Position numbers and translations under genes: made by a program. 64,000 nt of DNA, taken from Methanococcoides orientis. Its GTDB lineage: Archaea > Halobacteriota > Methanosarcinia > Methanosarcinales > Methanosarcinaceae. The notes beneath the pieces are model-generated. The model saw nothing but the letters and a program-made list of their open reading frames with translations, was not told the DNA's origin and ran no database searches. This document shows, piece after piece, positions 3,157 through 62,920 of the stretch (position 1 is its first letter; the number at the start of each line of letters is the position of its first letter). Location of the stretch: assembly GCF_021184045.1 (NCBI RefSeq), contig NZ_CP073710.1, forward strand, positions 682,001-746,000, in the 5' to 3' direction.

Positions 3157-4443
3157 TCAGTATAAATTACTTTGGCTCTTTAACCTGATAAATACTACCA
3201 CGACACCCACAAGCAATAAAATAAAACCATAGACAATGACCTCAAGACTCAGGTGTGCAAAGAGCAAAAGGGCACATAATATACCAAAAAGCGGTGAAAG
3301 GGGAAAACGGCCTATGTTAAAGGGAATCCTGAATGGTCTTTCGATATCGGGTCTTGAGTACCTCAACCATATCAGTGAAAGATTGATCGTTATAAAGATG
3401 ATAAAGACCATGAAATTGGTCATATTCGCCACGATCTCGATATCACCTATGAAAACAAACATTATTGAGAGTGATGTGAACACTAATATAGAGACCAATG
3501 GAGTCCTTGTCTTTGGATGAACCCAGGAGATCAATGAGGGAAGTGAACCAGATTCCGCCATACCATAGAGTATCCTCGAGCCCCCGATCTGCATAAGCAG
3601 AACGGTATTGGCAGTCGAGAAAAGAGCTATCAACGAAAGGATGACAAATGCATTGCTGCCCAACGCCACGGATGCAACCTCTGCCAGAGGAGCCGAAGAC
3701 GTTGACAATACCCTCCAGTCAAGGACACTCACAGCAGCCAATGCAACAAGTATGTAAAGCAATACAGTGGTTGCAATGGCAATTATAAGGGCTCGGGGTG
3801 TCGTCCTATGAGGGTCCTTTGTCTCTTGTGATAGCTTTACTATCTCCTCAAAGCCGAGGAATGCAAAGAAAACAAGCGCTGATGCCTCAAATATGCCTGA
3901 CAGACTCTGTACCTCCAGATAGTCCACAGAACCCATATAGGGAAGACCTATGGAGATTATCACAAGCAAGCCTATCATCTCGATGACGGTCATAAGAATG
4001 GCAGCCCTTGCAGATTGCTTAATACCCACGAAAAGGATCAATGTGAAAAGCAGTATAAGAGCGATAGCTGAGGGAATAGCAGGGGTGTGAAACAGAACCC
4101 CGAAATATTCCGCAAAGCCAAGGGCAACGGTAGAGCTTGAAATAATCTCCACGAAAATGACCAGCAGGCCTATAAGAAGACCCAGGAACTCGCCGAAGGC
4201 ATTCCTGACATACTCATATTCGGCCCCTGCCTTGGGGAACATGGATGAAAGCTCCATGTAACTTATAGCGGTAAGCCCGGCAGCAATGGCAGCAAACAAA
4301 AAGGACAACCAAAGGGTATTGCCCGAAAGACCTGCTGCCTTTCCAATAAGAACATATATACCGGCTCCCAGTATGCTTCCCACACCACTGAGTGTGATCT
4401 CCAAAAGCCCAAGCTCTCTTTTAAGAGTAACCTCTTCTCCCAT
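3157..4443 (-). CDS. APC-family amino acid permease
   Basis: The 428-residue protein has about 12 hydrophobic segments and the APC hallmark near the N-terminus: a helix broken by GSILGAGIYVLIGKAAG (residues 17-33), which in this superfamily holds the backbone of the substrate. FLGFEEIVKLSQETKDPHRTTPRAL (about 195-219) is the conserved TM6 and following loop of cationic or neutral amino acid permeases. The length is normal for a 12-helix permease. Substrate specificity cannot be read. The gene stands alone between a small unknown protein and pseudogene debris. Confidence 0.88.
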   Translation of the reverse strand: MGEEVTLKRELGLLEITLSGVGSILGAGIYVLIGKAAGLSGNTLWLSFLFAAIAAGLTAISYMELSSMFPKAGAEYEYVRNAFGEFLGLLIGLLVIFVEIISSSTVALGFAEYFGVLFHTPAIPSAIALILLFTLILFVGIKQSARAAILMTVIEMIGLLVIISIGLPYMGSVDYLEVQSLSGIFEASALVFFAFLGFEEIVKLSQETKDPHRTTPRALIIAIATTVLLYILVALAAVSVLDWRVLSTSSAPLAEVASVALGSNAFVILSLIALFSTANTVLLMQIGGSRILYGMAESGSLPSLISWVHPKTRTPLVSILVFTSLSIMFVFIGDIEIVANMTNFMVFIIFITINLSLIWLRYSRPDIERPFRIPFNIGRFPLSPLFGILCALLLFAHLSLEVIVYGFILLLVGVVVVFIRLKSQSNLY

Positions 4444-9392: not shown

Positions 9393-9863
9393 AATCCCTA
9401 ATCTCCATTTTTAGAAAATATTTTATCGATTAAAAACTAGAATTAGTTTCAATAATGATATAACGTATATATAGGGGCTTTGCTTTATTAAAAATAGTTA
9501 AAATAAAGTTTTTAAGCTTATAATTAGTAATAATAAGTCCATTATTTTCAAAAACAAATATATTCAGAATAATAAGGATTTAAAATTCAAATTTAGCTTT
9601 TTGAATGTATAATTAGAAAATAAATCAAAATAATCGATTTTAAAATATTAATAAAAATAAGATCTTAATTTAAAGTTACTATAAGCTTTTTTTTGTTAAT
9701 TAATAGGCATAAAATTATTATTATAATAAATAAAGCGTTTAAATTTCTTAATATTATTTATAATCAAATAAAAATGACTATGCGGAATCATAAGAACGAG
9801 AGTGGATGAACTCACCGAATACAAATGTGCAAGACCTGTATATAATGATTTAATGTTCATTTG
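9393..9863. other. AT-rich intergenic region
   Basis: About 470 bp without a convincing gene. From about 9400 to 9770 it is extremely A+T rich, with many short A and T runs, and must include the promoter of the YkgJ gene. From about 9790 to 9850 the composition becomes more balanced and a plus frame reads RTRVDELTEYKCARPVYND, which could be the stub of a lost gene, but I cannot name it. Confidence 0.5.
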
Positions 9864-48036: not shown

Positions 48037-48356
48037 TGTACCATCGGTAAATGTAATTCCCCCATTGTCACGTTGGTGAATTCTTTAAGGTCTATTTTGA
48101 GTCCTTAGTTTATAATTGAGTTCTTGGAAGCAATAAATATTGGGTTTGCAGGGAGTTAAAAAAGATTAAAGAAAGGGATATTGTCCCCAGCTAACCTATT
48201 TTTGTCCTTTATACTCTTCATAGTACCTCTATAAGCAATGCTTATCTTCCTGGGCGTGAGCAGCTCCATGTTCCTTGACCATGGCTTCAGCCAGACCCCG
48301 AGTTAACACATATAATATAAATGAAGACAGAGCAATAAATAAGATAGGTGAGTTGT
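48037..48356. other. intergenic region
   Basis: About 320 bp divergent between msrA and the surface protein gene. A TATA-like TATAATATAA lies at 48311-48320. On the minus strand, 48195-48310 has short frames that look weakly protein-like (GLAEAMVKEHGAAHAQEDKH), interrupted by a TAG; this may be a decayed gene end, but I cannot name it. Confidence 0.45.
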
Positions 48357-50333
48357 ATGAAAAGAAATATAATCTTAGTTCTGCTCATTTCCATAACTCT
48401 TTTGACCGGAATGATGGGTACAGGTCTTGCTCTTTCCAATGCGGGAGGGGGAGAATGGAATTTCTCAGAAGAAATGACGATAAAAGAGAACTCTGGCAAG
48501 GATCTAACCAATTACCAGATACAGGTTCTGCTGGATCCTTCAAATTTCGATTTCTCAAAAGCAAACCCGGATGGGTCAGATATCAGATTTTTCATAAATG
48601 ACAGGCAATTGTATCATTGGATCGAAGAGTGGGATGCTGGATCAGAGAGTGCTATAGTATGGATCAAGGTTCCTTCAATTCCCGCTAATGGAATGACAGA
48701 TGTGACAATGCATTATGGAAATCCGGCTGCAACTGGTATTAGCAATGGTGCTTCCACGTTCGATTTCTTTGATGATTTTGTCGAATCGCGCCTAGGCATT
48801 GCGAACTGGAGATCACATACAAATGCCGGAGGAGATATTGAAATTGGCAATGGGATCCTCAGATTGGTAAACCCAGTAAAACACCCCACGGATTTTGCAA
48901 AAATAACTTCCAAGGATGCATTTGGGATAAACTCAATGTTCGTTGTCAAGAGAATGAAGGTTACTACAGGATCCGAACCAATAGGTCCGTTGCTGGAGCA
49001 GGGACTTCTTGATCCGCAAGACGAAAGCGAAAATAGGATAATCCTTCGTACGGAACTCGCCAATGAGAGTAAGGTTTCATGGACTCTTACCAGTGATGAC
49101 GATAAGTTCAAGTCAAGAGACCTGACAAACCTTGGTATTGCGGAGGGGACATGGTATACATCAGGTATTGCATGGTATCAGGACGGTGATTTCAAAAACG
49201 TTTCATGGTTCAAGAACGGAGTAAGAGATACAAGGATGGATTATTCCTATTACATTGAAAATGAAGATGAAACTATAATTGACCACATTCCGGATACTGA
49301 ATTGAAATTATACCTGTATTCAACTACAGCCAGCACCATAAATAATATGGGCTATATGGCTGTGGATTATGCAATTGTACGTAAATATACGCCACAGGAG
49401 CCAACCGTTTTCCTGCCCGGAGAGGTCATTGCGCAAGAGCCTGAGCCCTTGCCGGAAAGTGATGTACAGGTCCCTCAGCCCATTTTAAAAGATATTAATA
49501 TGCCTGCCTCTGAAGCTGGAAAACAAGCAATATTTATCTTTGAGCCTTATTCTGACGACAGATCGATTTCTGTTATAAACGATCTGAAGGACAGTGGCAT
49601 AAACACAGTTTTCCTGAGAACGGACATCAACAATATCTGGAGCTCTGAGAGATTCATAAAATCGGCTCATGAAAATGCCATCACTGTCCATGCAATGATC
49701 CTTGATGAAAAGAAGGACTTCGTGGATGGAAGTGGCGAAAGTTCAATTGAGGCGGTCGAGGCAGTCCTTGATTACAACACGAAATCACTTGCAGGATTTG
49801 ATGGCATATACATAAGCCTGAAAACCTGCGATCCTGCTGAACTGGAACAGGTGTGTCAGGAAAATGAACAGCTTCTGGAAGCCATCCATGAAAGAACAGC
49901 TGGAAATGTATTATTAGTTGCAGGAATTCCGGCATCTTATGACAGATCAGCTATAGAGAACATTACGCCAAATGTTGATCTCTTTGTTCTAATGGCCCAT
50001 GACATGGATGAGCTCGAGCTAACAGCTGAAGAAATAGAGGACTCTGTTGCTTCAAAAATGGGAGAGATCCGAGGAGCTGAAGAATATGCCCTGATCACAG
50101 TTGTCGTAAGCGAAGGATCCGATGATGCAGAAGTCAATGAACTGTTGAACAGTCTATACGCCTACTACTCTGATGATCCCGCATTCCTGGGTGTTTCTCT
50201 TCTAATGCATGAAGACCTTCAAGAAGTCATAGAGGCTTCAGCCCCTGCCGAAGATAAGGGAACACCAGGATTTGAAGCTATATTTGCGATCATTGGTTTG
50301 CTATCGATCGCATATAGACTGAGAAAGCAATGA
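48357..50333 (+). CDS. PGF-CTERM surface protein with DUF2341-like domain
   Basis: From the ATG at 48357, after AGGTGAG, the protein has 658 residues. An N-terminal signal (KRNIILVLLISITLLTGMM) leads to a DUF2341-like domain (about 30-130, with TNYQIQVLLDPSNFDFSKA and MHYGNPAATG), a concanavalin-like region, and a second half (about 390-590) with a TIM-barrel-like series (GINTVFLRTDINNIW, GFDGIYISLKTCDPAELE). The C-terminus is TPGFEAIFAIIGLLSIAYRLRK, the PGF motif, a helix and basic tail recognised by an archaeosortase, which would attach it to lipid at the cell surface. The function is unknown. Confidence 0.87.
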   Translation: MKRNIILVLLISITLLTGMMGTGLALSNAGGGEWNFSEEMTIKENSGKDLTNYQIQVLLDPSNFDFSKANPDGSDIRFFINDRQLYHWIEEWDAGSESAIVWIKVPSIPANGMTDVTMHYGNPAATGISNGASTFDFFDDFVESRLGIANWRSHTNAGGDIEIGNGILRLVNPVKHPTDFAKITSKDAFGINSMFVVKRMKVTTGSEPIGPLLEQGLLDPQDESENRIILRTELANESKVSWTLTSDDDKFKSRDLTNLGIAEGTWYTSGIAWYQDGDFKNVSWFKNGVRDTRMDYSYYIENEDETIIDHIPDTELKLYLYSTTASTINNMGYMAVDYAIVRKYTPQEPTVFLPGEVIAQEPEPLPESDVQVPQPILKDINMPASEAGKQAIFIFEPYSDDRSISVINDLKDSGINTVFLRTDINNIWSSERFIKSAHENAITVHAMILDEKKDFVDGSGESSIEAVEAVLDYNTKSLAGFDGIYISLKTCDPAELEQVCQENEQLLEAIHERTAGNVLLVAGIPASYDRSAIENITPNVDLFVLMAHDMDELELTAEEIEDSVASKMGEIRGAEEYALITVVVSEGSDDAEVNELLNSLYAYYSDDPAFLGVSLLMHEDLQEVIEASAPAEDKGTPGFEAIFAIIGLLSIAYRLRKQ

Positions 50334-50445: not shown

Positions 50446-51231
50446 TTACTTCTTTTTATTTGCTCTGCTGTCTCTAACATAAATTTGGATATTGTTTCCA
50501 GAATCATGTAGATCTTGCTTGTTTATCTCGAATAGGTCAATTGCTGTGATAAGATCACTTAGTTTCTTATATCCATAGTTTCTAGAATCAAAATCTGATT
50601 CTCTTTTCATTGCATTTTGGCCAACATTACCCAAATCAGCCCATCCTTCCTCATTGGCAGAGTCTTCAATTGCACTTCTCAACAAATTCACAAGTTTTGT
50701 ATTGCCTTTTAGTTTGTTTTTACTCCACTTTTTACTGCTAGTTGAATTTGTTGTTGCTACTTTCTCTCCTCCACCCTCATCATCTTCCTTTCGAAGGTTT
50801 TCAATATATATGAACTTATTACAGGCGGCTCTAAATGCTTCAGGGGTTTTCTTTTCTCCAAACCCATATACAAAGGAACCGGATTCGCGCAACCGTTGAC
50901 ATAGTTTAGTGTAGTCACTATCACTCGATACAATGCAAAAGCCATCTATGTCTTTAGTATAAAGCAGGTCCATTGCATCGATGATCAATGCACTGTCGGT
51001 TGCATTCTTTTTTGCTGTATAGCAAAATTGCTGTATTGGTTGTATTGAATATGTATGAAGTGTTTCTTTCCAGGGAACAAGCTGGGGACCGGTCCAATCT
51101 CCATAAAGTCGTTTGACATTTGCAACACCATACTTTGCAATTTCATCAAATAACCCTTTTACAATTGATGCCTGAGCATTATCTGCATCTATCAGCACAG
51201 CGAGTTTATTTTGTGATTCATTCTTTTCCAT
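50446..51231 (-). CDS. NYN-domain putative RNase with C-terminal OST-HTH domain
   Basis: The 261-residue protein has a NYN (LabA/DUF88, PIN-like) domain at about 8-145 with the acidic residues Asp15, Asp17 and Asn18 in VLIDADNAQ, Asp79, and Asp104/Asp106 in VSSDSDYTKL; these bind the metal that cuts RNA in relatives. A low-complexity linker (150-175) leads to an OST-HTH/LOTUS domain (178-240, LVNLLRSAIEDSANEEGWAD), which binds RNA or guides protein contacts. The start follows GGGGGAG. Its 5' end lies 14 bp after the unknown gene at 51246, so the two form an operon. Confidence 0.88.
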   Translation of the reverse strand: MEKNESQNKLAVLIDADNAQASIVKGLFDEIAKYGVANVKRLYGDWTGPQLVPWKETLHTYSIQPIQQFCYTAKKNATDSALIIDAMDLLYTKDIDGFCIVSSDSDYTKLCQRLRESGSFVYGFGEKKTPEAFRAACNKFIYIENLRKEDDEGGGEKVATTNSTSSKKWSKNKLKGNTKLVNLLRSAIEDSANEEGWADLGNVGQNAMKRESDFDSRNYGYKKLSDLITAIDLFEINKQDLHDSGNNIQIYVRDSRANKKK

Positions 51232-51245
51232 GTACTCCCCCCAGT

Positions 51246-52895
51246 TTAATATTCGTATGAAAGTGCTTCTCCAAATACATCTTTCAAAATATGCTTGGCC
51301 AACTCAATTCTAAAGAATAAAATAAAATGATCACTTCTATTTGCTCTATCTCTTTTAAGAATATCCAAATAGTCTTTAAATTTTTCTTTAGATATTTCGG
51401 AAAGTTCGTCAAAACCAATGTACAACAATTCAGACCAATTTTCTTTAAGTAGCACGTTTCTAAGATCGTTTTTTAACGTAATTTCTAGATATTTTGGTAT
51501 TTCTGATTCGGTATCAATATATTTGACCAGATTCTTTGTTTCCGGACTAAAGTGATTGTGCAGGATCTTACAAACCGGTTTTTCTGTATCTTTCAGATAT
51601 TCCAGCATTTTTGGAAAGTCTGTGATGCTTTCTAATATCTCTAAAAGCTGTTTCAGAATATCAAACTGGTATGTTATTCCTTGATCATAGAAACTGAACG
51701 AACTTCTTTTAGGAGCATTGTCATCACCAAATAATGATTCAACTGAAAAACTTCTAGTAAAATACATTTCTTTATATTTGTTGAATATTACTGACATGAG
51801 TTCATTTTTTTCAGTTCCATCTACTTTGGTAACGTTTGAAAAGATAATAGTTTCATCAATTAGTTCGTTTTTAGGATATGATCCGGAACTTGCCAGGTCA
51901 CCAATTGTTAAGAACAAAAGCTTTTCCATAACTGGATCGAATGTTCCCGTGAGAATATGTTCATATGGTTTACTATCCCCTAGTTCCCATTTTTCACAAA
52001 GAAATTCTCCGAGGGCTGATGGGGAGCTTTTTATAAGTAATAGGATTGGTGTAATTAGGCAATTCTGTTGCCATTTATTATAGTAGGTTTTTAAGGCACT
52101 ATGGCAGGTCTTCAAACTCGGATATTTCTTAAAAACATCTTCGTTCAGTGATTCTATTTTTGTTATAGATTCGTTGATATTATTGTTATCGAAATCCAGG
52201 ACAGGCATTTTTAACATTATCTGTACTGGATAGAATTGATTTATTTTCAATCCTTTTTCAGAATCAATTCTTTCAATTTTTCTTTGCACATAGATGCTAA
52301 AAGAATCAATGTCCCCATCTGTCATTTCTGCTACAATTTCCGGATATGTTTTACCAGCTTTTATTAGTTTTTCTATAGAGAAATCGGTATAAATTGTTCT
52401 GCTATTAAGATAATCTTTGAATAGGAGAGATGCTTCTGATTCTTCCCAGGAAAAAAGATCAAAGACCTTTTCCGGAATCGCATCTTTCTCATTAAGTGTT
52501 TTTCTTATAAGGTCTTCATTTATTCTTGATTGAATGTAATCGTATCCGAAGATTCGAACTGTATTTTTGATGTCTGAATTATCAAGAACAATTCTTATGA
52601 TCTTCTTAAATGATTTCAGATCAGAGTTCAGATAAAAATACTTGGTTTCATTTTTCTGTCGAGGTGGTTTCCTCATCTCAAAAGAAAATATACCCATCTT
52701 CTCATATTTGTTACATACTTCCTTGGCATGAACTCGGGAAATGGTACCTTCAAGATCCTTTTCAATTTTTGCAGGATATGAATAAAAGTGAGATTCGGTC
52801 GCATTTTCGCTTCCAAGCACATCACTTTCTTTCATAATGAAATAATCAATTACTAACAAATCCTTCTCTGTAATATTATATCTTTTAGACTCCAT
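51246..52895 (-). CDS. unrecognised 549-residue protein with winged-helix-like N-terminus
   Basis: The ATG at 52895 follows GTGGAGGT, which decides the start. The first 110 residues (MESKRYNITEKDLLVIDYFI, then EGTISRVHAKEVCNKYEKMG and KPPRQKNETKYFYL) look like a winged helix with a basic hairpin. The rest (120-549) is mostly helical, charged, without membrane segments, Walker or nuclease motifs that I can see. The base composition is A+T rich like the Hachiman genes. It is the first gene of a two-gene operon with the NYN-OST-HTH protein, and its promoter holds palindromic repeats. I infer a regulatory or sensor role for the NYN partner. Confidence 0.72.
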   Translation of the reverse strand: MESKRYNITEKDLLVIDYFIMKESDVLGSENATESHFYSYPAKIEKDLEGTISRVHAKEVCNKYEKMGIFSFEMRKPPRQKNETKYFYLNSDLKSFKKIIRIVLDNSDIKNTVRIFGYDYIQSRINEDLIRKTLNEKDAIPEKVFDLFSWEESEASLLFKDYLNSRTIYTDFSIEKLIKAGKTYPEIVAEMTDGDIDSFSIYVQRKIERIDSEKGLKINQFYPVQIMLKMPVLDFDNNNINESITKIESLNEDVFKKYPSLKTCHSALKTYYNKWQQNCLITPILLLIKSSPSALGEFLCEKWELGDSKPYEHILTGTFDPVMEKLLFLTIGDLASSGSYPKNELIDETIIFSNVTKVDGTEKNELMSVIFNKYKEMYFTRSFSVESLFGDDNAPKRSSFSFYDQGITYQFDILKQLLEILESITDFPKMLEYLKDTEKPVCKILHNHFSPETKNLVKYIDTESEIPKYLEITLKNDLRNVLLKENWSELLYIGFDELSEISKEKFKDYLDILKRDRANRSDHFILFFRIELAKHILKDVFGEALSYEY

Positions 52896-52942
52896 GTTTG
52901 ACCTCCACTTTGATGAGTTAAGCATCGACACTGGTAAGTAGA

Positions 52943-52973
52943 CTTTACTAGTATATATGCTTTACTAGTAAAG
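52943..52973 (-). promoter_or_regulatory. palindromic operator around a TATA box
   Basis: The string CTTTACTAGTA occurs at 52943-52953 and again at 52960-52970; the second copy extends to the perfect palindrome CTTTACTAGTAAAG. Between them lies a TATATATG, which on the minus strand is a TATA box about 60 bp before the ATG at 52895. Outer CTGGTAA and TTACCA strings add a third layer. A protein bound here would block the promoter of the 549-residue gene; that protein's own winged-helix part is the obvious candidate. Confidence 0.55.
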
Positions 52974-53133
52974 TTAGTTTACCACTAGCATGATATGGGG
53001 ACTGATTGGAGAAATTTGTATTCGTATAGTTGGAGCAGGAACTTGAATTAATTATTTATATCAAAATTTATATTCTAAGTTACAAAGTAATACATATTAT
53101 CTTTATTCTGATACCATTATTGGAAGCTGGAAA

Positions 53134-55422
53134 ATGGATGAAATTAACAAAAATGAACTGAGTGAAAGGGATATTTGCACCAAATTCATCACTCCGGCTA
53201 TCGATAAAGCAGGATGGAACCTTCATACACAGGTACGTGAGGAAGTACCACTTACCAACGGGAGAATAATTGTCAGTGGTCAGACAGTTTCCCGTGGCAA
53301 GAACAAGCGTGCTGATTACATTCTATATCATAAACCCAATATTCCAATTGCTGTTGTTGAAGCGAAGAATAACAAATTTGAAGTGGGTGAAGGCATGCAG
53401 CAGGCCCTTGGCTATGCTGATATGGTGGATGTTCCTTTTGCTTTCAGCTCCAATGGTGATGCTTTCCTGTTCCATGATCGTTCAGGAAACTCCGATAAGA
53501 TCGAACAGGAACTTTCTCTTGATCAATTTCCGTCACCGGAGGAACTCTGGGAATCCTACTGCAGGTGGAAAGGGATTGATAATGCTGATAATAAGTTGGT
53601 TGAACAGGATTATTATCCCAGTTTCGCAGGCAAGAGTCCACGATATTATCAGATAAATGCCATTAACAGAACTATTGATGCTATCTCAAAGGGTCAGGAC
53701 CGCATTCTACTGGTTATGGCAACCGGAACCGGTAAGACATACACAGCTTTTCAGATCATCTGGAGGTTGTGGAAATCAAAGACGAAGAAACGTATTCTTT
53801 TCCTTGCAGACAGGAACATTTTGGTTGATCAGGCCAAGACCAATGACTTCAAGCCGTTTGGTTCTGCAATGACTAAAATAAGTAAGAGACAGGTTGACAA
53901 GTCCTATGAGATCTATCTCTCACTATATCAGGCTGTAACCGGCAATGAAGAAGAGAAGAACATCTACAAGCAGTTCTCAAGGGATTTCTTTGATCTTGTA
54001 GTTGTGGATGAATGTCACCGTGGAAGTGCTGACGAGAATTCTGCGTGGAGAGAGATCTTGGAATACTTTGATTCCGCTACGCAGATCGGTATGACAGCCA
54101 CTCCAAAGGAAACGGAGACTGTATCCAATATTCACTATTTCGGTGAGCCGATCTATACCTATTCGCTTAAGCAGGGGATTGAAGACGGTTTCCTTGCTCC
54201 TTACAAGGTCATTCGTATCGACCTTGACAAGGATATTCAGGGATGGAGACCTCAAAAAGGGAAGCGGGACAAATATGGCAGAGAAATAATCGACCGTATC
54301 TATAATCAACAGGATTTCGACCGTGAGATCGTTCTCGAGCAGAGGACTGAAGTGGTCGCTAAAAAGGTAACTGAGCTTCTCAAAGCAACAGACAGGTACG
54401 GTAAAACCATTGTCTTCTGTGAGAACATTGATCACGCTGAGAGAATGCGACAGGCTCTTGTTAATGAGAATCCTGATCTTTCACAGAACAGCAAATATGT
54501 GATGAGAATTACCGGCGATGAAAAGGAAGGAAAGGCTGAACTGGACAATTTCATCATACCTGAGAACCGCTACCCCGTCATTGCTACCACATCCAAGCTT
54601 CTGAGTACTGGTGTGGATGTGCAGACGTGCAAACTTATTGTTCTTGATAAACAGATCAAGTCCATGACCGAGTTCAAGCAGATCATAGGGCGTGGAACTC
54701 GTATAAATGAAGATTATAATAAATTCTATTTCACGATCATGGATTTCAGAAATGCGACAGAAAGGTTTGCAGATCCTGGTTTTGATGGTGAACCGGTCGA
54801 GGTTTACAAAGGATCAGGAACTAAACCACTTCGCCCAAACATGCCAACCCAGAAGATCAAGCCCTATAAGGTCGATGATGTGGGCGTTTCCGTCATTGCG
54901 GAGAGAGTACAGTACTACGGTTCTGACGGGAAGCTGGTGACGGAATCCATCAAGGATTACACTAAAAATACTATGCTTAAGGAGTTCTCATCTCTTGACC
55001 TATTCTTAAAGCACTGGTCAGATACCGGAAAGAAGACCGCCATACTTGAAGAGCTTGAGGACAAAGGCCTGTTGCTGGATGCACTTGCAGAGGAGGTCGG
55101 CAGAAATTATGACCCATTCGACATGATCTGCCATGTGGTTTTCGATCAGCCGCCATTGAGCCGCAAGCAGAGGGCGAACAATGTTCGCAGGACTGGCTAT
55201 TTTGAAAAATACGGAGATCGAGCACGTGATGTTCTTGATGCTCTTCTGGACAAGTATGCAGATGAAGGTATCAAAAACCTTGAGGACCTCGATATTCTCA
55301 GAGTGAAACCATTGAGTGATATTGGAACACCTATTGAGATCATTAAGCTCTTCGGGAACAAAGAGAATTTCCTTGAAGCTGTCGAGGAAATGGAAACACA
55401 ATTATACCTTGCTGAAGCTTAA
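53134..55422 (+). CDS. hsdR: type I restriction enzyme, endonuclease/translocase subunit
   Basis: The 762-residue HsdR is of the shorter EcoEI-like type. The N-terminal nuclease domain has the PD-(D/E)xK residues Asp61 and Glu76-x-Lys78 in [20 protein letters not shown]. The helicase motor has Walker A MATGTGKT (195-202), DECH (293-296), [10 protein letters not shown], and later [13 protein letters not shown]. The C-terminus (about 620-755) contacts HsdM. HsdR translocates DNA past unmethylated sites and cuts. It starts the hsdRMS operon and is divergent from the gene at 51246. Confidence 0.94.
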
Positions 55423-55453
55423 TTGCTGAGCAACGCAGGAAGAGGAAAAAACG

Positions 55454-56902
55454 ATGTCAATTAGTACTACTATCAAGACTATACAGGATATCATGAGGAA
55501 GGACGCTGGTGTGGATGGGGATGCACAGCGTATTAGTCAGCTTGTATGGATGCTTTTCCTGAAGATATACGATGACAGGGAAGAAGAATACGAGGCGATG
55601 GAAGACAACTATGTGTCTCCTCTCCCTGAGCGGTTGAGGTGGAGGAACTGGGCAAAGAATGCAGAAGGCATAACCGGTGAAGAACTGCTGGATTTCGTGA
55701 ACAACGATCTTTTCAAGACCCTGAAAGACCTTTCGTTTACTGAGAACTCAGACCCACGTGGCTTTGTGGTGCGTGATGTTTTCGAAGATTCCTACAATTA
55801 TATGAAAAACGGCACCCTGATCCGTCAGATGGCCAACAAGATCAATGAGATCGACTTTAACGCTTCTAATGACCGCCACCTTTTCGGAGATGTATATGAG
55901 AAGATCCTGAAAGACCTCCAGAGTGCCGGAAATGCCGGCGAGTTCTATACTCCAAGGGCTGTTACTGAGTTCATGGTGCAGATGGTGAACCCGAAGATCG
56001 GGGAAAAGCTACTGGACCCTGCCTGTGGTACCGGCGGTTTCCTGAAATCCTCTATTGAACACCTGAGAGACAAGGTGGAAAACGTTGAGGATGAACAAAT
56101 TTTGCAAAATTCCATTCACGGCGTTGAAAAGAAGCCACTCCCACACCTGCTATGCATAACCAATATGCTGTTGCATGGCATCGAGAACCCCGCACAGATC
56201 CACAGGGACAACTCACTTGCAAGACCTCTGAGGGATTATAATCCATCCGATAAAGTAGATGTGATCATAACCAATCCTCCATTTGGAGGAACCGAGGAGG
56301 ACGGAATCGAGTCCGGTTTCCCTACCAACTACCAGACAAGAGAAACAGCCGACCTTTTCCTCGTCCTTATCACCCACCTGCTAAGGGATAATGGACGTGG
56401 TGCGATAGTCCTCCCTGACGGAACACTGTTCGGAGAAGGTGTCAAAACTCGCATAAAAGAGAAGTTGCTCAATGAGTGTAACCTTCACACCATTGTACGC
56501 CTTCCAAACGGCGTGTTCAATCCTTACACAGGCATCAAGACCAATCTCCTGTTCTTCACCAAAGGAGAGCCTACAAAAGAGATCTGGTACTACGAACACC
56601 CCTACCCCGAAGGCTACAAGTCCTACTCCAAGACCAAACCCATGCGAATTCAGGAGTTCGAACCCGAAAAGGCCTGGTGGAATAACCGCGAGGAAACCGA
56701 ACTCGCCTGGAAGGTCAACATAGACGATATCAAGGCAAACAACTACAACCTCGACATCAAGAACCCCCACGAAGAAGCCATAGACCACGGCGACCCCGAA
56801 GAACTCCTTGAGGACTACAAAGCCCTCCTCTCCGAGATCTCCGAAACCCGCAACGCCCTGAAAGCAGAACTCATGGCAGCCCTCGAAGGTAAAAACGCAT
56901 GA
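55454..56902 (+). CDS. hsdM: type I restriction enzyme, DNA methyltransferase subunit
   Basis: This N6-adenine methyltransferase has 482 residues. The N-terminal HsdM domain is followed by FYTPR (164-168), the SAM-binding DPACGTGGF (188-196) and the catalytic NPPF (274-277). It methylates host sites together with HsdS and forms part of the restriction complex. It lies 31 bp after hsdR; its stop overlaps the hsdS start by 4 bp. Confidence 0.95.
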   Translation: MSISTTIKTIQDIMRKDAGVDGDAQRISQLVWMLFLKIYDDREEEYEAMEDNYVSPLPERLRWRNWAKNAEGITGEELLDFVNNDLFKTLKDLSFTENSDPRGFVVRDVFEDSYNYMKNGTLIRQMANKINEIDFNASNDRHLFGDVYEKILKDLQSAGNAGEFYTPRAVTEFMVQMVNPKIGEKLLDPACGTGGFLKSSIEHLRDKVENVEDEQILQNSIHGVEKKPLPHLLCITNMLLHGIENPAQIHRDNSLARPLRDYNPSDKVDVIITNPPFGGTEEDGIESGFPTNYQTRETADLFLVLITHLLRDNGRGAIVLPDGTLFGEGVKTRIKEKLLNECNLHTIVRLPNGVFNPYTGIKTNLLFFTKGEPTKEIWYYEHPYPEGYKSYSKTKPMRIQEFEPEKAWWNNREETELAWKVNIDDIKANNYNLDIKNPHEEAIDHGDPEELLEDYKALLSEISETRNALKAELMAALEGKNA

Positions 56903-58602
56903 ACCCCGAACTCTTTTTCGAGAACTTCGACCTGCTCGCTGAATCCCCAAACGGCATCCAGAAGCTCCGCGAGATGATCCTGCAGATGGCTGTGCAGGGT
57001 AAGCTTGTGGAGCAGAATCCTGATGATGAGCCGGCAGGGGTGTTGTTGGGGAAGATAACTGCTGAGAAGGAGAGGTTGGTTAAGGAGAAGAAGATTAGAA
57101 AATCTCAGCCGTTATCTGCAATTGAAGAAACAGAGCATCTATTCGAAATTCCAAAAACATGGAAATGGGTAAGATTGGGTAATCTTGGAGATTGGGGGGC
57201 CGGAGCAACACCAAATAGGAAAAAAATGGAGTATTATGATGGATCAATTAATTGGTTTAAGTCAGGAGAACTAAATGATGGATACATTACTGATTCAGAT
57301 GAAAAAATCAACACTCTGGCACTAAAAGAATGTTCCTTAAGGCTTAATAGTCCCGATGATGTTCTTATTGCGATGTATGGTGCAACAATTGGAAAAGTTG
57401 CCATACTCAAAACAGAAGGAACAACAAACCAAGCAGTTTGTGCATGTACGTGTTATGATGGATATTACAATGAATACTTATTCTTGCTTTTAAAAGCATA
57501 TAGAAAACATTTTACTAATCAAGGTTCTGGTGGAGCACAACCAAATATTTCAAGACAAAAGATAATTCACACTGTTTCCCCATTACCACCACTAGAAGAA
57601 CAAAAACGCATCGTAACTAAAGTAGATCAACTCATGGCACTATGCGACCAGCTCGAATCACTCAAGCAAAAGAAAAACGAAAGCCGCATCCAACTAAACA
57701 CTTCAGCACTCAACAAAATGCTCGATGCCGGCAGCCCTGAAGAATTTGCAGAACACTGGCAGCTTGTTTGTGAGAACTTCGATCTGCTATATGACGATCT
57801 GGATAATGTGGAGAAGCTCAGGCAGGCGATATTGCAGCTTGCAGTGCAGGGTAAGCTTGTGGAGCAGGATGTTAGTGATGAGCCGGCAGGGGTGTTGTTG
57901 GGGAAGATTAAGGCTGAGAAGGAGAGGTTGGTGAAGGAGAAGGTAATTAGAAAATCCAAGCCTTTGCCAGAAATCGATGATGAAGATGTCCCATTTAAGA
58001 TACCAACTAATTGGGAATGGACCATGCTTGGTACCTTATGTTTTAGTGTTGCGGATGGTCCACACTTTTCCCCAAAATATGTAACAAAGGAAGAAGGAAT
58101 ACCTTTCCTTTCTGCTCGGAACGTTAAATTAGGTGGATTTGAACTTGATTCTGTTAAGTACGTATCTCCTGAAGACCACAAAAAGTTTTGTGAACGCATT
58201 AAACCAGATAAAGGAGATATACTCTATACAAAAGGAGGCACTACAGGAGTAGCACTTGTTAATGATTTGGATTTTGAATTTAGTGTATGGGTTCATCTTT
58301 CCGTTCTTCAAATTGCTAGAAAATATGTAGATTCATATTATCTTGCTTATGCACTCAATTGCCCACTTTGCTATGAGCAATCTCAAAAATTTACTCATGG
58401 AAGTTCAAATAGAGATTTAGGTTTAACAAGAATGGTAAAAATACTCCTTCCACTACCGCCACTCAAAGAACAAAAACGCATAGTCGCCAAAGTCGATCAA
58501 CTCATGGCAATTTGCGACCAGCTTGAAGCAAAAATAAAGCAGGCACAATCGGATAGTGAAAAGTTGGTGGAAGTGGCTGTGAGAGATACTTTGAATGTGT
58601 AA
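56899..58602 (+). CDS. hsdS: type I restriction enzyme, specificity subunit
   Basis: HsdS reads the two halves of the target site. The 567-residue protein has two similar halves, each with a leading block (LRxxILQxAVQGKLVEQ, then DEPAGVLLGKI and EKERLVKEK), a target-recognition domain (about 90-215 and 365-530), and a coiled-coil end starting PPLxEQKRIVxKVDQLMAxC. The two recognition domains differ, as expected for a bipartite asymmetric site. The site cannot be deduced. Confidence 0.94.
   Translation: MNPELFFENFDLLAESPNGIQKLREMILQMAVQGKLVEQNPDDEPAGVLLGKITAEKERLVKEKKIRKSQPLSAIEETEHLFEIPKTWKWVRLGNLGDWGAGATPNRKKMEYYDGSINWFKSGELNDGYITDSDEKINTLALKECSLRLNSPDDVLIAMYGATIGKVAILKTEGTTNQAVCACTCYDGYYNEYLFLLLKAYRKHFTNQGSGGAQPNISRQKIIHTVSPLPPLEEQKRIVTKVDQLMALCDQLESLKQKKNESRIQLNTSALNKMLDAGSPEEFAEHWQLVCENFDLLYDDLDNVEKLRQAILQLAVQGKLVEQDVSDEPAGVLLGKIKAEKERLVKEKVIRKSKPLPEIDDEDVPFKIPTNWEWTMLGTLCFSVADGPHFSPKYVTKEEGIPFLSARNVKLGGFELDSVKYVSPEDHKKFCERIKPDKGDILYTKGGTTGVALVNDLDFEFSVWVHLSVLQIARKYVDSYYLAYALNCPLCYEQSQKFTHGSSNRDLGLTRMVKILLPLPPLKEQKRIVAKVDQLMAICDQLEAKIKQAQSDSEKLVEVAVRDTLNV
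56961..57107 (+). repeat. hsdS: hsdS direct repeat 1a
   Basis: This stretch is repeated with few changes at 57811-57956. Long identical parts include GTGCAGGGTAAGCTTGTGGA and GATGAGCCGGCAGGGGTG. It encodes the conserved leading block of each HsdS half and could allow recombination that exchanges recognition domains. Confidence 0.75.
57590..57657 (+). repeat. hsdS: hsdS direct repeat 2a
   Basis: This part, encoding EEQKRIVTKVDQLMALCDQLE, is repeated at 58461-58527. It flanks the recognition domains on the other side. Confidence 0.7.
57811..57956 (+). repeat. hsdS: hsdS direct repeat 1b
   Basis: Second copy of 56961-57107, located before the second recognition domain. Confidence 0.75.
58461..58527 (+). 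repeat. hsdS: hsdS direct repeat 2b
   Basis: Second copy of 57590-57657, located after the second recognition domain. Confidence 0.7.
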
Positions 58603-58721: not shown

Positions 58722-59618
58722 ATGCTACCAAAGAAAGAAATTGGACAAGATTTCTTGGATCTTTTTTATCATGAGATCGTTGATTTTGATTTGGAAAATC
58801 AAAACAAATTGAATCTCTTTATCCTAAGAATAGATAGCAACAGGTTTGCTTATGATGATTTATTGTATGAACTATATGATAACATTATTACCTTTTCTCT
58901 TTCAAGACAGGAACTAGATAACTTTAAAAATAGTCAGGGTGGCAAAAAATATGTTACTGCTCGCGATAAATTTAGAGATTATACTAGTAATGAAGGAGAA
59001 TTGGGTGAAGTATTACTCTATTGTTTTCTTGAGTCACACCTTAATGCTCCAAAAATAATAACAAAACTTGAAATAAAAACGGCTAATAACGATTATGTAA
59101 AAGGGGCAGATGGGGTACATTTGTTAAAGTTAAACTCTAGTGATTTTCAGTTAATTTTTGGAGAATCAAAACTGGATTCTGACTTAAAAAGTGGGATATA
59201 TGATGCATTTGGCTCAATAATGAAATTTTTAGATGATAAAAAGAATAAAGTTAGATTTGAAACGAATTTGATAAATAGTCAACTAATTAAGGAGTCAGTT
59301 GATGATTCAACATATGACTTTTTGAAAAAGATAATAATCCCGTCTGCAAATGAAGATGAGTACAACATAGACAAATCTTTTGGAATCTTTTTAGGTTTTG
59401 ATATTAAAGTTGATGATGATAAAAAAAAGCTTAGTAACGCAGAATTTCGCCAATATTTAAGAGAAAATACTAAAGATTCAGTTCTCAGTTCTGTTAAAAC
59501 CATAAAAAAGCAAATAGAAAAAAAAGATCTATGGGGTTACACTTTTTATCTGTATATCGTCCCATTTACAGATTTGAAAGAAATAAGAAAAGACATCATT
59601 GAAAAATTGACCACTTAA
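58722..59618 (+). CDS. hamA: Hachiman nuclease subunit HamA (DUF1837)
   Basis: The 298-residue protein fits the DUF1837 family, the HamA effector of the Hachiman anti-phage system. The nuclease residues are visible in order: GELGEVLLYCFLE (92-104) with Glu93/Glu96, VKGADGVHLL (126-135) with Asp130, and GESKL (147-151) with Glu148-x-Lys150. HamA is held inactive by HamB until infection and then degrades DNA. The following gene is a helicase, 1 bp downstream. A TATA-like element lies about 30 bp before the ATG. The gene is clearly richer in A+T than hsdM. Confidence 0.83.
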   Translation: MLPKKEIGQDFLDLFYHEIVDFDLENQNKLNLFILRIDSNRFAYDDLLYELYDNIITFSLSRQELDNFKNSQGGKKYVTARDKFRDYTSNEGELGEVLLYCFLESHLNAPKIITKLEIKTANNDYVKGADGVHLLKLNSSDFQLIFGESKLDSDLKSGIYDAFGSIMKFLDDKKNKVRFETNLINSQLIKESVDDSTYDFLKKIIIPSANEDEYNIDKSFGIFLGFDIKVDDDKKKLSNAEFRQYLRENTKDSVLSSVKTIKKQIEKKDLWGYTFYLYIVPFTDLKEIRKDIIEKLTT

Positions 59619-59619
59619 C

Positions 59620-62190
59620 ATGAATGCTACTCTAATTGATAAATTAACCGAAGACGTTCTTGGAGATCAATATTTTAAAGAATTATTCATAAAAGCTTCA
59701 AGTTCGTTATCAGCAGAGCTATTTCAGTTGCCAACAAGAGACGTAGAACTTACAGAAAAAGAGTATGTTCATTTGTTGAGATTTGCTGATATTCTTTCAA
59801 ATTCGTCTGATTCTAAAGCTCGTAATAAATCATATCAAATTATTAGCATATTGAATCATGCGTATAAAGAGGATCCCACTTATCGAACTTATTCAAAAGC
59901 TGTTTTTGCTAAGCTAGGAAATTTTCCAGCGATTGAATATCTGGAAAAAAAAGATAGAAACCCTGCAAAATTACCTTTTGATAGAAATTTGGAAAAAACA
60001 GCTAAAGAGATTATTCAATCTGTGCCAGATTCAGAAGGATTAGTATTTACAGATGTACAATACGAATTATTCACAAAGCTCAAGAATTCAAAATTATTCA
60101 GTTTCTCTGGTCCAACTTCAATGGGAAAGTCGTTCATTATAAAGTCATTTATCAGAGAAGTACTTGGAAATACGCCCAAAGAAAATTTGGTTATAATGGT
60201 ACCCACGAGAGCATTGATAAACCAATTTACTCTTGATTTAAAAAGTGAGCTTGGTAACTATATTGAAGAATATGGGTATAAAATTGTAACAAATTCTAAC
60301 GTAAGTGAATTATTAGAAGATAATTCTAATTATGTTTTTATTCTAACACCTGAAAGACTATTAAGCTATTTGTCTAAAAAAGATAATCCTTCATTGGGTT
60401 TTATTTTTGTCGATGAAGCACATAAAATAGCATCACAGAAAGATTTGAGAAGTGTAACTGCCTATAAAGCTATTGAAAAAACATTGCAGACATTCACTAA
60501 TATCAATTTATATTTTGCATCTCCAAATGTATCGAACCCAGAAATTTTTCTAAAAGTATTTAACAAGAATCCCAGCAAAAATTTCCACACAATCGAATCA
60601 CCAGTATCTCAAAATTTATTTTTCATAAATATGTTAGAATTCTCAGTATCTCATTATATTGATGATTCGATCAAGACATTTCATCCAAAATTACTTACTG
60701 ACCTTTATGAGACAAATAATCTCATTAAACACTTGGGTAAAAATGATTACAACATCGTTTATTGTAATTCAAAAAATACAACTATAGAAAAATCATTCAG
60801 CTTTGCAAATATTATAAGCAAAGAAAATTTTGTAATTTCTCAAGAGACAAAGAAAGCAATTAAACAGATTCAGGATTACATCCATGAAGATTTCTACTTA
60901 GCCTCTTTTTTGGAAGTAGGAATTGCATACCATTTTGGAAGTCTTCCTCAATTGGTCCGAAATATTGTAGAGAATCTTTATCGAGATGGTCACATAAAAT
61001 ACCTTTTTTGCACATCTACCTTATTAGAAGGTGTAAACCTTCCGACTAAAAATGTGTTCATACTTGTCAATAAAAATGGTAGATCACAATTTACAGACAT
61101 TGATTTTTGGAATCTTGCAGGTAGAGCTGGAAGGTTGAAAAAAGAATTATCTGGGAATATATATTGTATTAGAGATGATATTAAAAATTGGAAAAATACA
61201 GAAGTATTAGAACAAAAAAATGATATTAAACTCAAACCTACTATCGAGGAAAAAACTGATACTGAAAAAGAGTTAATGAAAATAGAAAAAACACTTCTAA
61301 ATGAAGATATTAAAGGAACTCTAACAGAAAAAGAAATATTAGAGTACATTGCAAATATTATTTGTATTGATACGCTAAAAATAGATAGTGGATATCAAAG
61401 CCCTGTTATACAAAAATTAATTGAAATGAATAAGTCTGAAATAATTTCAATTGCTCATAAAAAAGCAGGAAAATTAAAAGTTCCTCTGGAAGTTTTGAAT
61501 TCTAATCAATCAATTGATATTGAAATACAAAACAAAGTATACAACTTTATTCTTAAAAGGAAAAATACTTCTTCAGTACTATTACCTCAAAAAGTGGACT
61601 ATTCTAATTGCTTGAAGGTATTGTCAAAATTTTATGATAATTATGAATGGGATAAGAAGGAGAAAAATCTAAAGAACAAAAATTCGTTGAGCTATTTTGC
61701 TTTGCTTATGAACCAATGGATTAATGGGACTTCTCTTAACCAAATAATAAAGGATTCAATAGACTATCATGTAACCAATAAAAAACACATATACATTGCA
61801 CATAAAGATGCTGGAGAATTTAATAAAAATAATAAAGAACATATTAACGCGCTTATTGGTAGTATTATTGAGGACATTGAAGGGACATTAAGATATTCAT
61901 TTGAAAAGTATTTCACTCATTATTATATGAGTCTAGTTGAAGTTTTTGGAGAAGAGAACGCTGGGGTAAATTGGTCACAGTTTTTAGAGTATGGTACACA
62001 AAACCGTTTATCTATCGCCCTTCAAAATTTAGGAGTTTCTAGACATACTGCAAATTATATTCTACAAAAACATAAAAATGTGCTCATAATTGAGGATAAT
62101 AAATTGAAGGGGATCAATAAAAATAAACTATTTGCAGATATGAAGAAGACAAATATTGAATATGAGGAGATTAAATCAATTTTTGGTTAA
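59620..62190 (+). CDS. hamB: Hachiman helicase subunit HamB
   Basis: The 856-residue superfamily 2 helicase has Walker A SGPTSMGKSF (163-172), motif Ia MVPTRALINQ, the DEAH box (265-268), STLLEGVNLPTKNV and the arginine finger block FWNLAGRAGRLKKE (about 494-507). The long C-terminal part (550-856) has no motif that I can name, as in HamB. It senses DNA ends or damage and controls HamA. The start lies 1 bp after the hamA stop, so both are translated together. It is A+T rich, a sign of transfer. Confidence 0.84.
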   Translation: MNATLIDKLTEDVLGDQYFKELFIKASSSLSAELFQLPTRDVELTEKEYVHLLRFADILSNSSDSKARNKSYQIISILNHAYKEDPTYRTYSKAVFAKLGNFPAIEYLEKKDRNPAKLPFDRNLEKTAKEIIQSVPDSEGLVFTDVQYELFTKLKNSKLFSFSGPTSMGKSFIIKSFIREVLGNTPKENLVIMVPTRALINQFTLDLKSELGNYIEEYGYKIVTNSNVSELLEDNSNYVFILTPERLLSYLSKKDNPSLGFIFVDEAHKIASQKDLRSVTAYKAIEKTLQTFTNINLYFASPNVSNPEIFLKVFNKNPSKNFHTIESPVSQNLFFINMLEFSVSHYIDDSIKTFHPKLLTDLYETNNLIKHLGKNDYNIVYCNSKNTTIEKSFSFANIISKENFVISQETKKAIKQIQDYIHEDFYLASFLEVGIAYHFGSLPQLVRNIVENLYRDGHIKYLFCTSTLLEGVNLPTKNVFILVNKNGRSQFTDIDFWNLAGRAGRLKKELSGNIYCIRDDIKNWKNTEVLEQKNDIKLKPTIEEKTDTEKELMKIEKTLLNEDIKGTLTEKEILEYIANIICIDTLKIDSGYQSPVIQKLIEMNKSEIISIAHKKAGKLKVPLEVLNSNQSIDIEIQNKVYNFILKRKNTSSVLLPQKVDYSNCLKVLSKFYDNYEWDKKEKNLKNKNSLSYFALLMNQWINGTSLNQIIKDSIDYHVTNKKHIYIAHKDAGEFNKNNKEHINALIGSIIEDIEGTLRYSFEKYFTHYYMSLVEVFGEENAGVNWSQFLEYGTQNRLSIALQNLGVSRHTANYILQKHKNVLIIEDNKLKGINKNKLFADMKKTNIEYEEIKSIFG

Positions 62191-62299: not shown

Positions 62300-62920
62300 A
62301 TGTCTTACAGCTCCCACGCTGAAGAGGACGACGATGTTGAGATCGAGGAAGAATACCTGGGAGATTATGCCAGTATTCGGTCTATTGTGAAAGAGGCATT
62401 GCCGTTCCAGATCCTTGCGACGTTAGGAGGAGCTGTGGCTGGTCTTATTCTTGTGGGGATGACTGATGAGCTTGAGCTGATTCCGGGTTTGATCGTCATT
62501 TATCCGGCAGTTCTTGGTATGCGTGGGAACATTTCATGCACCCTTGGGTCTCGTCTTGGCAGTGCTATACACATGGGTCTTATTACTAAGATCGAGAACA
62601 ATCCGGAGCTTACTAATAATATTTTAGGGTCGCTTACGCTTGGTTTTATTCTTTCTGTGGTTCTCGGGATATTAGGGCATGGTATGACAGCCCTGCTGGG
62701 GCTTGAAAGTGCGGGAGTTGTATCCCTTACGCTGATCGCTGTGCTTGCAGGGGTGTCCTCAGGGCTCATTCTTGCGGTTATTGCTGTGCTCCTTGCAATA
62801 GGCATGTTCAGGTTCGGTTTTGATCCTGACAACGTTGTGACGCCTGCAATTGCGACCATTGGGGACATCGTATCCATGTTCATGCTGTTAATGGCTGCAA
62901 AGGTGGTGCTGATGTTATGA
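62300..62920 (+). CDS. MgtE-like divalent cation transporter, half 1
   Basis: The 206-residue protein corresponds to the membrane domain of MgtE/SLC41 Mg2+ transporters, with five helices and no cytoplasmic N and CBS domains. The key block is LIPGLIVIYPAVLGMRGNIS and TLGSRLGSAIHMG, with a later FGFDPDNVVTPAIATIGDI that holds the acidic ion-binding Asp. The acidic N-terminus (HAEEDDDVEIEEEY) is unusual. The stop overlaps the next gene by 4 bp; the two halves presumably form one transporter. Confidence 0.86.
   Translation: MSYSSHAEEDDDVEIEEEYLGDYASIRSIVKEALPFQILATLGGAVAGLILVGMTDELELIPGLIVIYPAVLGMRGNISCTLGSRLGSAIHMGLITKIENNPELTNNILGSLTLGFILSVVLGILGHGMTALLGLESAGVVSLTLIAVLAGVSSGLILAVIAVLLAIGMFRFGFDPDNVVTPAIATIGDIVSMFMLLMAAKVVLML

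Follow-up and report, generated by a model that had tools for sequence, protein, structure and literature searches.

A probable new archaeal DNA-binding control protein encoded beside interchangeable antiviral genes

A 549-residue protein encoded in a defence island of Methanococcoides orientis, here called X, probably represents a new kind of DNA-binding control protein in archaea, and its gene stands beside interchangeable antiviral genes. We analyzed a window of 64,000 nucleotides, meaning the whole stretch of DNA that holds the gene, and compared the X locus with those of other archaea; G numbers denote genomes and L numbers the loci compared, G000 being the genome of the window. On balance, and with moderate confidence, we favour a reading in which X, a sensor-repressor with a winged helix, regulates its own gene and, once released, would let an exchangeable antiviral effector be made.

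A sequence-only reading of the window had described two intact, coupled genes on the minus strand, and both proved complete, with X exactly where it had been placed and the second gene, encoding a 261-aa protein, starting exactly 14 bp past the end of X (Table 1). The gap holds GGGGGGAG ahead of the second start. For X itself, the start at 52895 (549 aa) was favoured over an upstream GTG (561 aa), because a GGAGGT lies at 52901-52906. The NYN and LOTUS domains proposed for the second product were borne out by Pfam, which returned NYN (PF01936) at 129 bits against a cut-off of 24.2 (E=2.6e-37) and OST-HTH/LOTUS (PF12872) at 59.4 bits against 23.8 (E=3.2e-16). The NYN aspartates D15, D79, D104 and D106 were all kept, here as well as in the X-linked NYN partners of G081 and G137.

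Table 1. Features of the X locus and its surroundings, in window coordinates.
Feature	Position	Strand	Remarks
NYN-OST-HTH (LOTUS) putative ribonuclease, second gene	50446..51231	-	261 aa; Pfam NYN and OST-HTH; aspartates
Gene X	51246..52895	-	549-aa product outside named families; N-terminal winged helix, then a long C-terminal part, helical for the most part
Winged-helix domain of X (residues 7-111)	52563..52877	-	pLDDT mostly >90; structure matches
Shine-Dalgarno GGAGGT of X	52901..52906	-	just ahead of X start 52895
Operator array (candidate)	52930..52986	.	ACYRGT at 52930, 52947 and 52964; degenerate ACCACT (one mismatch) at 52981; pitch exactly 17 bp
TATA box of X promoter (at 52952)	52947..52958	-	array site abuts it (GCATATATACTAGTAAAG on minus strand)
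Perfect palindrome CTTTACTAGTAAAG	52960..52973	.	part of array; holds the genome's only exact TTTACYRGTAAA
Type I restriction-modification hsdR, hsdM, hsdS	53134..58602	+	PADLOC; divergent from X
Hachiman HamA and HamB	58722..62190	+	PADLOC

In agreement with the earlier failure to place the 549-residue protein, searches of Pfam, NCBIfam and PADLOC gave no family match above cut-off. When 14 members of the X family were scanned singly against Pfam, scattered weak matches and nothing more were obtained, and a profile of 14 X sequences matched no solved structure. An AlphaFold2 model of X, made with six sequences, reached a pLDDT of 77.4 and a pTM of 0.73, the first 110 residues scoring mostly above 90. 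The structure that best matched this predicted winged helix was Archaeoglobus AF1382 (83 residues aligned at 2.7 A, Z 8.7), followed by many archaeal and bacterial winged-helix regulators. Since many winged-helix families tie at Z 7.6-8.7, the fold of the X N-terminus is established but not its family, be it of the MarR/ArsR/PadR type or another; Z-DNA/Z-RNA-binding winged helices also match, at a non-specific Z of about 8. Residues 216-549 modelled alone gave a poor model (pLDDT 64.5) with no structure match of Z 5 or more, and structure comparison recognised no ligand-binding fold in the C-terminal part; a viral library likewise had no match to the C-terminal part at E<=0.001. Because the C-terminal model is poor, these absent matches are no sign of a new fold.

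Palindromes on both sides of the TATA box of the X promoter had been noted before, a description that understated the arrangement, in that CTTTACTAGTAAAG sits in a row of sites with a 17-bp pitch around the TATA box. The genome (2.49 Mb) has a single exact TTTACYRGTAAA, at the X promoter. Three consecutive ACYRGT sites at a 17/18-bp pitch were present in 6 of the 238 genomes of the class; tandem repeats aside, they were confined to the promoters of X in G000 and in G081, the latter with four ACYRGT sites at an 18-bp pitch. The viperin-linked X promoters of G071 and G098 each hold a TATA-abutting site and a second site 18 bp downstream (with one mismatch in G071), together with a AGTNGTAAAC variant, read by eye, 18 bp upstream of the TATA-abutting site. 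At least two ACYRGT sites lay within 150 bp upstream of 4 of the 16 X genes, compared with 0.4% of 528 other upstream regions at the same loci, and TATACYRGTA occurred in all four array-bearing X promoters (this genome and three others) against one of the 528 background regions; these counts are descriptive, because the X promoters counted are also those from which the consensus was derived. The genome-wide scans agree with them, since they returned a single exact TTTACYRGTAAA and phased sites at X promoters.

Each of the two main X clades and each of the two effector types is represented among the four ACYRGT promoters, whose spacers have diverged. They are 4 of the 16 X promoters, and 2 more carry a different array: in a third X clade (G479 and G487) the palindromic GTCGACGCGT recurs at an exact 28-bp pitch, again with diverged spacers. 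A tandem-periodicity test across all X promoters was uninformative outside G000. As arrays stand before X in separate clades, tandem operators appear to be a recurrent feature of this gene, with a specificity that shifts between clades. DNA binding by X is supported by its predicted fold and by the candidate operators, and X would be the protein that binds the array.

The type I restriction and Hachiman neighbours reported earlier were also called by PADLOC, and the A+T richness held, with 33% GC over 51001-53000, near the 29-32% of HamAB and compared with 35-50% over most of the window. Several X loci in other genomes likewise sit among other defence genes. Seven relatives have the same transporter genes as a flank but lack the NYN-X pair next to them. 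Thus, G094 and G092 have a homologue of 48348-50333 followed within about 2 kb by the transporter pair (at 62300 here), G093 has restriction genes at this site and lacks both NYN-X and Hachiman, and G098 has an hsdR fragment only. Absence of the pair from this site in relatives indicates that it is an independently gained or lost cassette. The hsdR of G093 (L149:8534-10822) is 95% identical to that of the window, is split in two reading frames and adjoins a different hsdS.

We searched for X at the level of the order (186 genomes), the class (238) and the phylum (393). At the thresholds used, 8, 11 and 15 genomes, respectively, were positive, numbers that still include a few weak matches which we discount. 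With L039, which a scan across public species genomes added, we count 16 X loci, sporadic and all within one archaeal phylum; the G096 locus is split over two contigs. Left out were L038, a 3.1-kb contig of a Brocadia MAG that resembles Methanoperedens X and is possibly mis-binned, and weak profile matches to ParA-like (G139), baseplate-like (G009) and KAP NTPase (G096 C71) proteins and in G168. Searches of plasmids, phages and viral contigs brought up no X homologue, the viral-contig scan being made with a few peptide patterns and giving no strong negative.

An antiviral-type gene lies directly beside X at 9 of the 16 loci. The recurrent pairing with NYN-OST-HTH that the sequence-only reading had proposed as a check was found at three (the window; L012 of G081, where the genes overlap; and L018 of G137, where they are divergent), and viperin is the more telling partner, adjoining X at six loci, or about five independent cases since G306 and G459 are near-copies. 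At L015 and L017 (G071 and G098) viperin is encoded on the strand of X and overlaps the X gene at its end; at L039, L083, L084 and L086 (the last three in G306, G459 and G365) it is divergent from X. The first two scored 246 and 264 bits with NF038283 (cut-off 180) and were called pVip by PADLOC; the other four were assigned only by a profile made from L015, L017, L018 and L039 (E 1e-122 to 1e-147). X homologues did not occur mostly alone or in housekeeping contexts, though 6 of the 16 loci have no recognised adjoining effector. In G096, X is followed after 256 bp by an RNase III-like gene in the same orientation (L040:2219-2917), a possible third effector type.

These neighbourhoods could in principle reflect chance, defence-island shuffling having put X beside NYN while the function of X is unrelated. 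The island is indeed variable among close relatives, and NYN relatives stand in varied, mostly unrelated surroundings. However, viperin is present in only 17 of the 238 genomes of the class, which makes its adjacency to 6 of the 16 X genes, with overlaps and a repeated divergent layout, very unlikely to be accidental even when defence islands are allowed for, and NYN stands beside X three times, in separate X clades. We therefore regard chance neighbourhood as improbable. In the X tree, rows linked to viperin are interspersed with rows linked to NYN, and each of the two labels must have changed at least twice on branches with good support. Between G000 and G081, moreover, X is 42-43% identical while the paired NYN proteins share only 25%. 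Both findings indicate that the effector was exchanged while X stayed.

Relatives of the NYN-OST-HTH protein were found in 40 of the 238 genomes of the class, mostly with 45-79% identity, and in most of these genomes they occur without X, showing that the NYN nuclease does not generally depend on X. Related proteins are also encoded by phages (MT835593, CP101896, CP101890 and others), with 40-46% identity and a match to phrog_37744. The distribution bears on the suggestion that the pair might be a toxin-antitoxin module, with NYN as the toxic RNase and X as both antitoxin and autorepressor. Like type II modules, the pair is a two-gene operon with predicted autoregulation, its upstream partner being predicted to bind DNA and its promoter carrying palindromic sites. 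Usual type II antitoxins are nevertheless far smaller than 549 aa, the putative toxin occurs mostly without the putative antitoxin, and the partner is exchangeable for viperin, which is not an RNase, at six loci. The stand-alone NYN relatives in particular weaken the toxin-antitoxin reading, which we judge very improbable. What survives of the regulated unit first proposed is a defence unit in which X would control and NYN would act.

Viperin loci without X provided a second comparison. A divergent CARF-like gene is found at 14 of 17 such loci and at none of the six with X, a contrast for which Fisher's test gives p of about 8e-4 (hand calculation), a value that overstates independence because the rows are related to each other. 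The CARF-like product has about 250 residues and matches PF19810 (HFX_2341-like) and, weakly, CARF families. Most of these loci also encode a nucleotide kinase and a TPR protein of about 1000 residues, and they resemble the viperin-TPR type of archaea that PMC12988326 mentions. In the X-linked loci the slot for a regulator-like gene divergent from viperin is the same but is filled by X instead; CARF-like, kinase and TPR genes are absent from all six. Judged by gene content, then, X takes the place of another regulator at viperin loci. Two loci are organized differently. At L018:7015-18001 of G137, X and NYN-OST-HTH are followed about 4 kb away by a full CARF-viperin-kinase-viperin-TPR cluster, and at L090:2350-4885 of G139 a 473-residue HTH protein, a 40-residue protein and viperin stand in a row without X or CARF, the HTH protein being possibly a third kind of viperin regulator.

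Small companion proteins recur at these loci. One of about 40 residues (MxKKxMTxKAASRIQSHADKTGxNQxFKARAQSAAxKNxK; encoded at L017:10470-10592, L085:8568-8696, L125:8165-8287 and other places), for which a Pfam search gave no match, adjoins 12 of the 16 X loci. It also occurs beside NYN without X (G098 and G091) and beside viperin without X or CARF (G139), and this SRIQS...RAQSAA protein stands as a C-terminal fusion on a zinc-ribbon protein (G124) and on an HTH protein (G051). The association with X is strong but not exclusive, since a class-wide search found six further companion loci elsewhere (G051, G113, G086, G076, G130 and G107). Given these loci and the absence of a companion gene from the genome of the window, the idea that the companion is an obligate part of the unit was dropped. 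Another tiny protein, acidic or Asn-rich (NQCNPNNDAYWQSRG), lies beside some loci (L018:~9540-9710, L041:~3280-3400 and L088:~11562).

We infer that X senses and represses. It would be the founding member of a family of one-component sensor-regulators in archaea, with a winged helix and with a plug-in antiviral effector under their control, and would bind through that winged helix to the tandem ACYRGT-centred sites that cover the TATA box of the X promoter. Bound X would block promoter access, and would do so as a repressor rather than an activator, keeping its own transcript and the downstream or divergent effector gene low. Upon infection, the long C-terminal part would receive a signal and X would let go. 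The effector thus released would be, in this genome, the NYN-OST-HTH protein, a putative ribonuclease that would cut RNA, and, in the corresponding slot of other species, viperin, a maker of chain-terminating nucleotides, with an antiviral effect expected in either case.

It may instead be that X is a physical partner, which holds the nuclease or viperin inactive or brings the effector to viral nucleic acid, its winged helix binding nucleic acid as part of sensing and the array serving for secondary autoregulation. X and effector genes that overlap or lie 14 bp apart at several loci, as for co-made proteins, a length well beyond that of a simple repressor, and the non-specific matches to Z-DNA/Z-RNA-binding folds are in keeping with this idea. 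Yet the same protein would need to bind two unrelated effector enzymes, close NYN relatives stand alone elsewhere, and the divergence of X from viperin at four loci is a regulator layout. We consider physical partnership unlikely, although less so than chance neighbourhood or a toxin-antitoxin module.

Under the sensor-repressor reading, a regulator family with a likely operator at the base-pair level, conserved across two effector types, offers a direct handle on the control of such genes, and X could serve as bait for finding more archaeal antiviral effectors. In the papers searched, the induction of viperin and similar antiviral enzymes in archaea is not described. More tentatively, X might be a general archaeal infection switch to which lineages attach a ribonuclease, viperin or perhaps RNase III, often with the 40-residue companion, in a logic comparable to interferon-type induction; we regard this extension as possible rather than probable. 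The literature consulted on viperins, archaeal immunity and NYN/LOTUS proteins mentions no X-like partner, and an earlier description is possible.

NYN-OST-HTH (LOTUS) proteins are represented by MARF1 in animals and by stand-alone genes in bacteria and archaea (PMC2848206, PMC6294520). The NYN protein described here has the same domain pair and conserved aspartates, but its gene is coupled to X, and its function in archaea is putative. On the regulatory side, BrxR/CapW proteins are winged-helix WYL-domain regulators common to many different defence systems, and BrxR is a repressor whose binding sites are inverted repeats within its island (PMC9122601). A WYL domain was sought in 14 X proteins by sequence profile and gave no match at E up to 5, so X is not a member of this family. 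Both have an N-terminal winged helix, predicted in the case of X, whereas X is archaeal, carries a long C-terminal part for which no related fold was recognised, and has viperin or NYN as its immediate partner. By analogy in how they would act, BrxR is the closest functional parallel of X.
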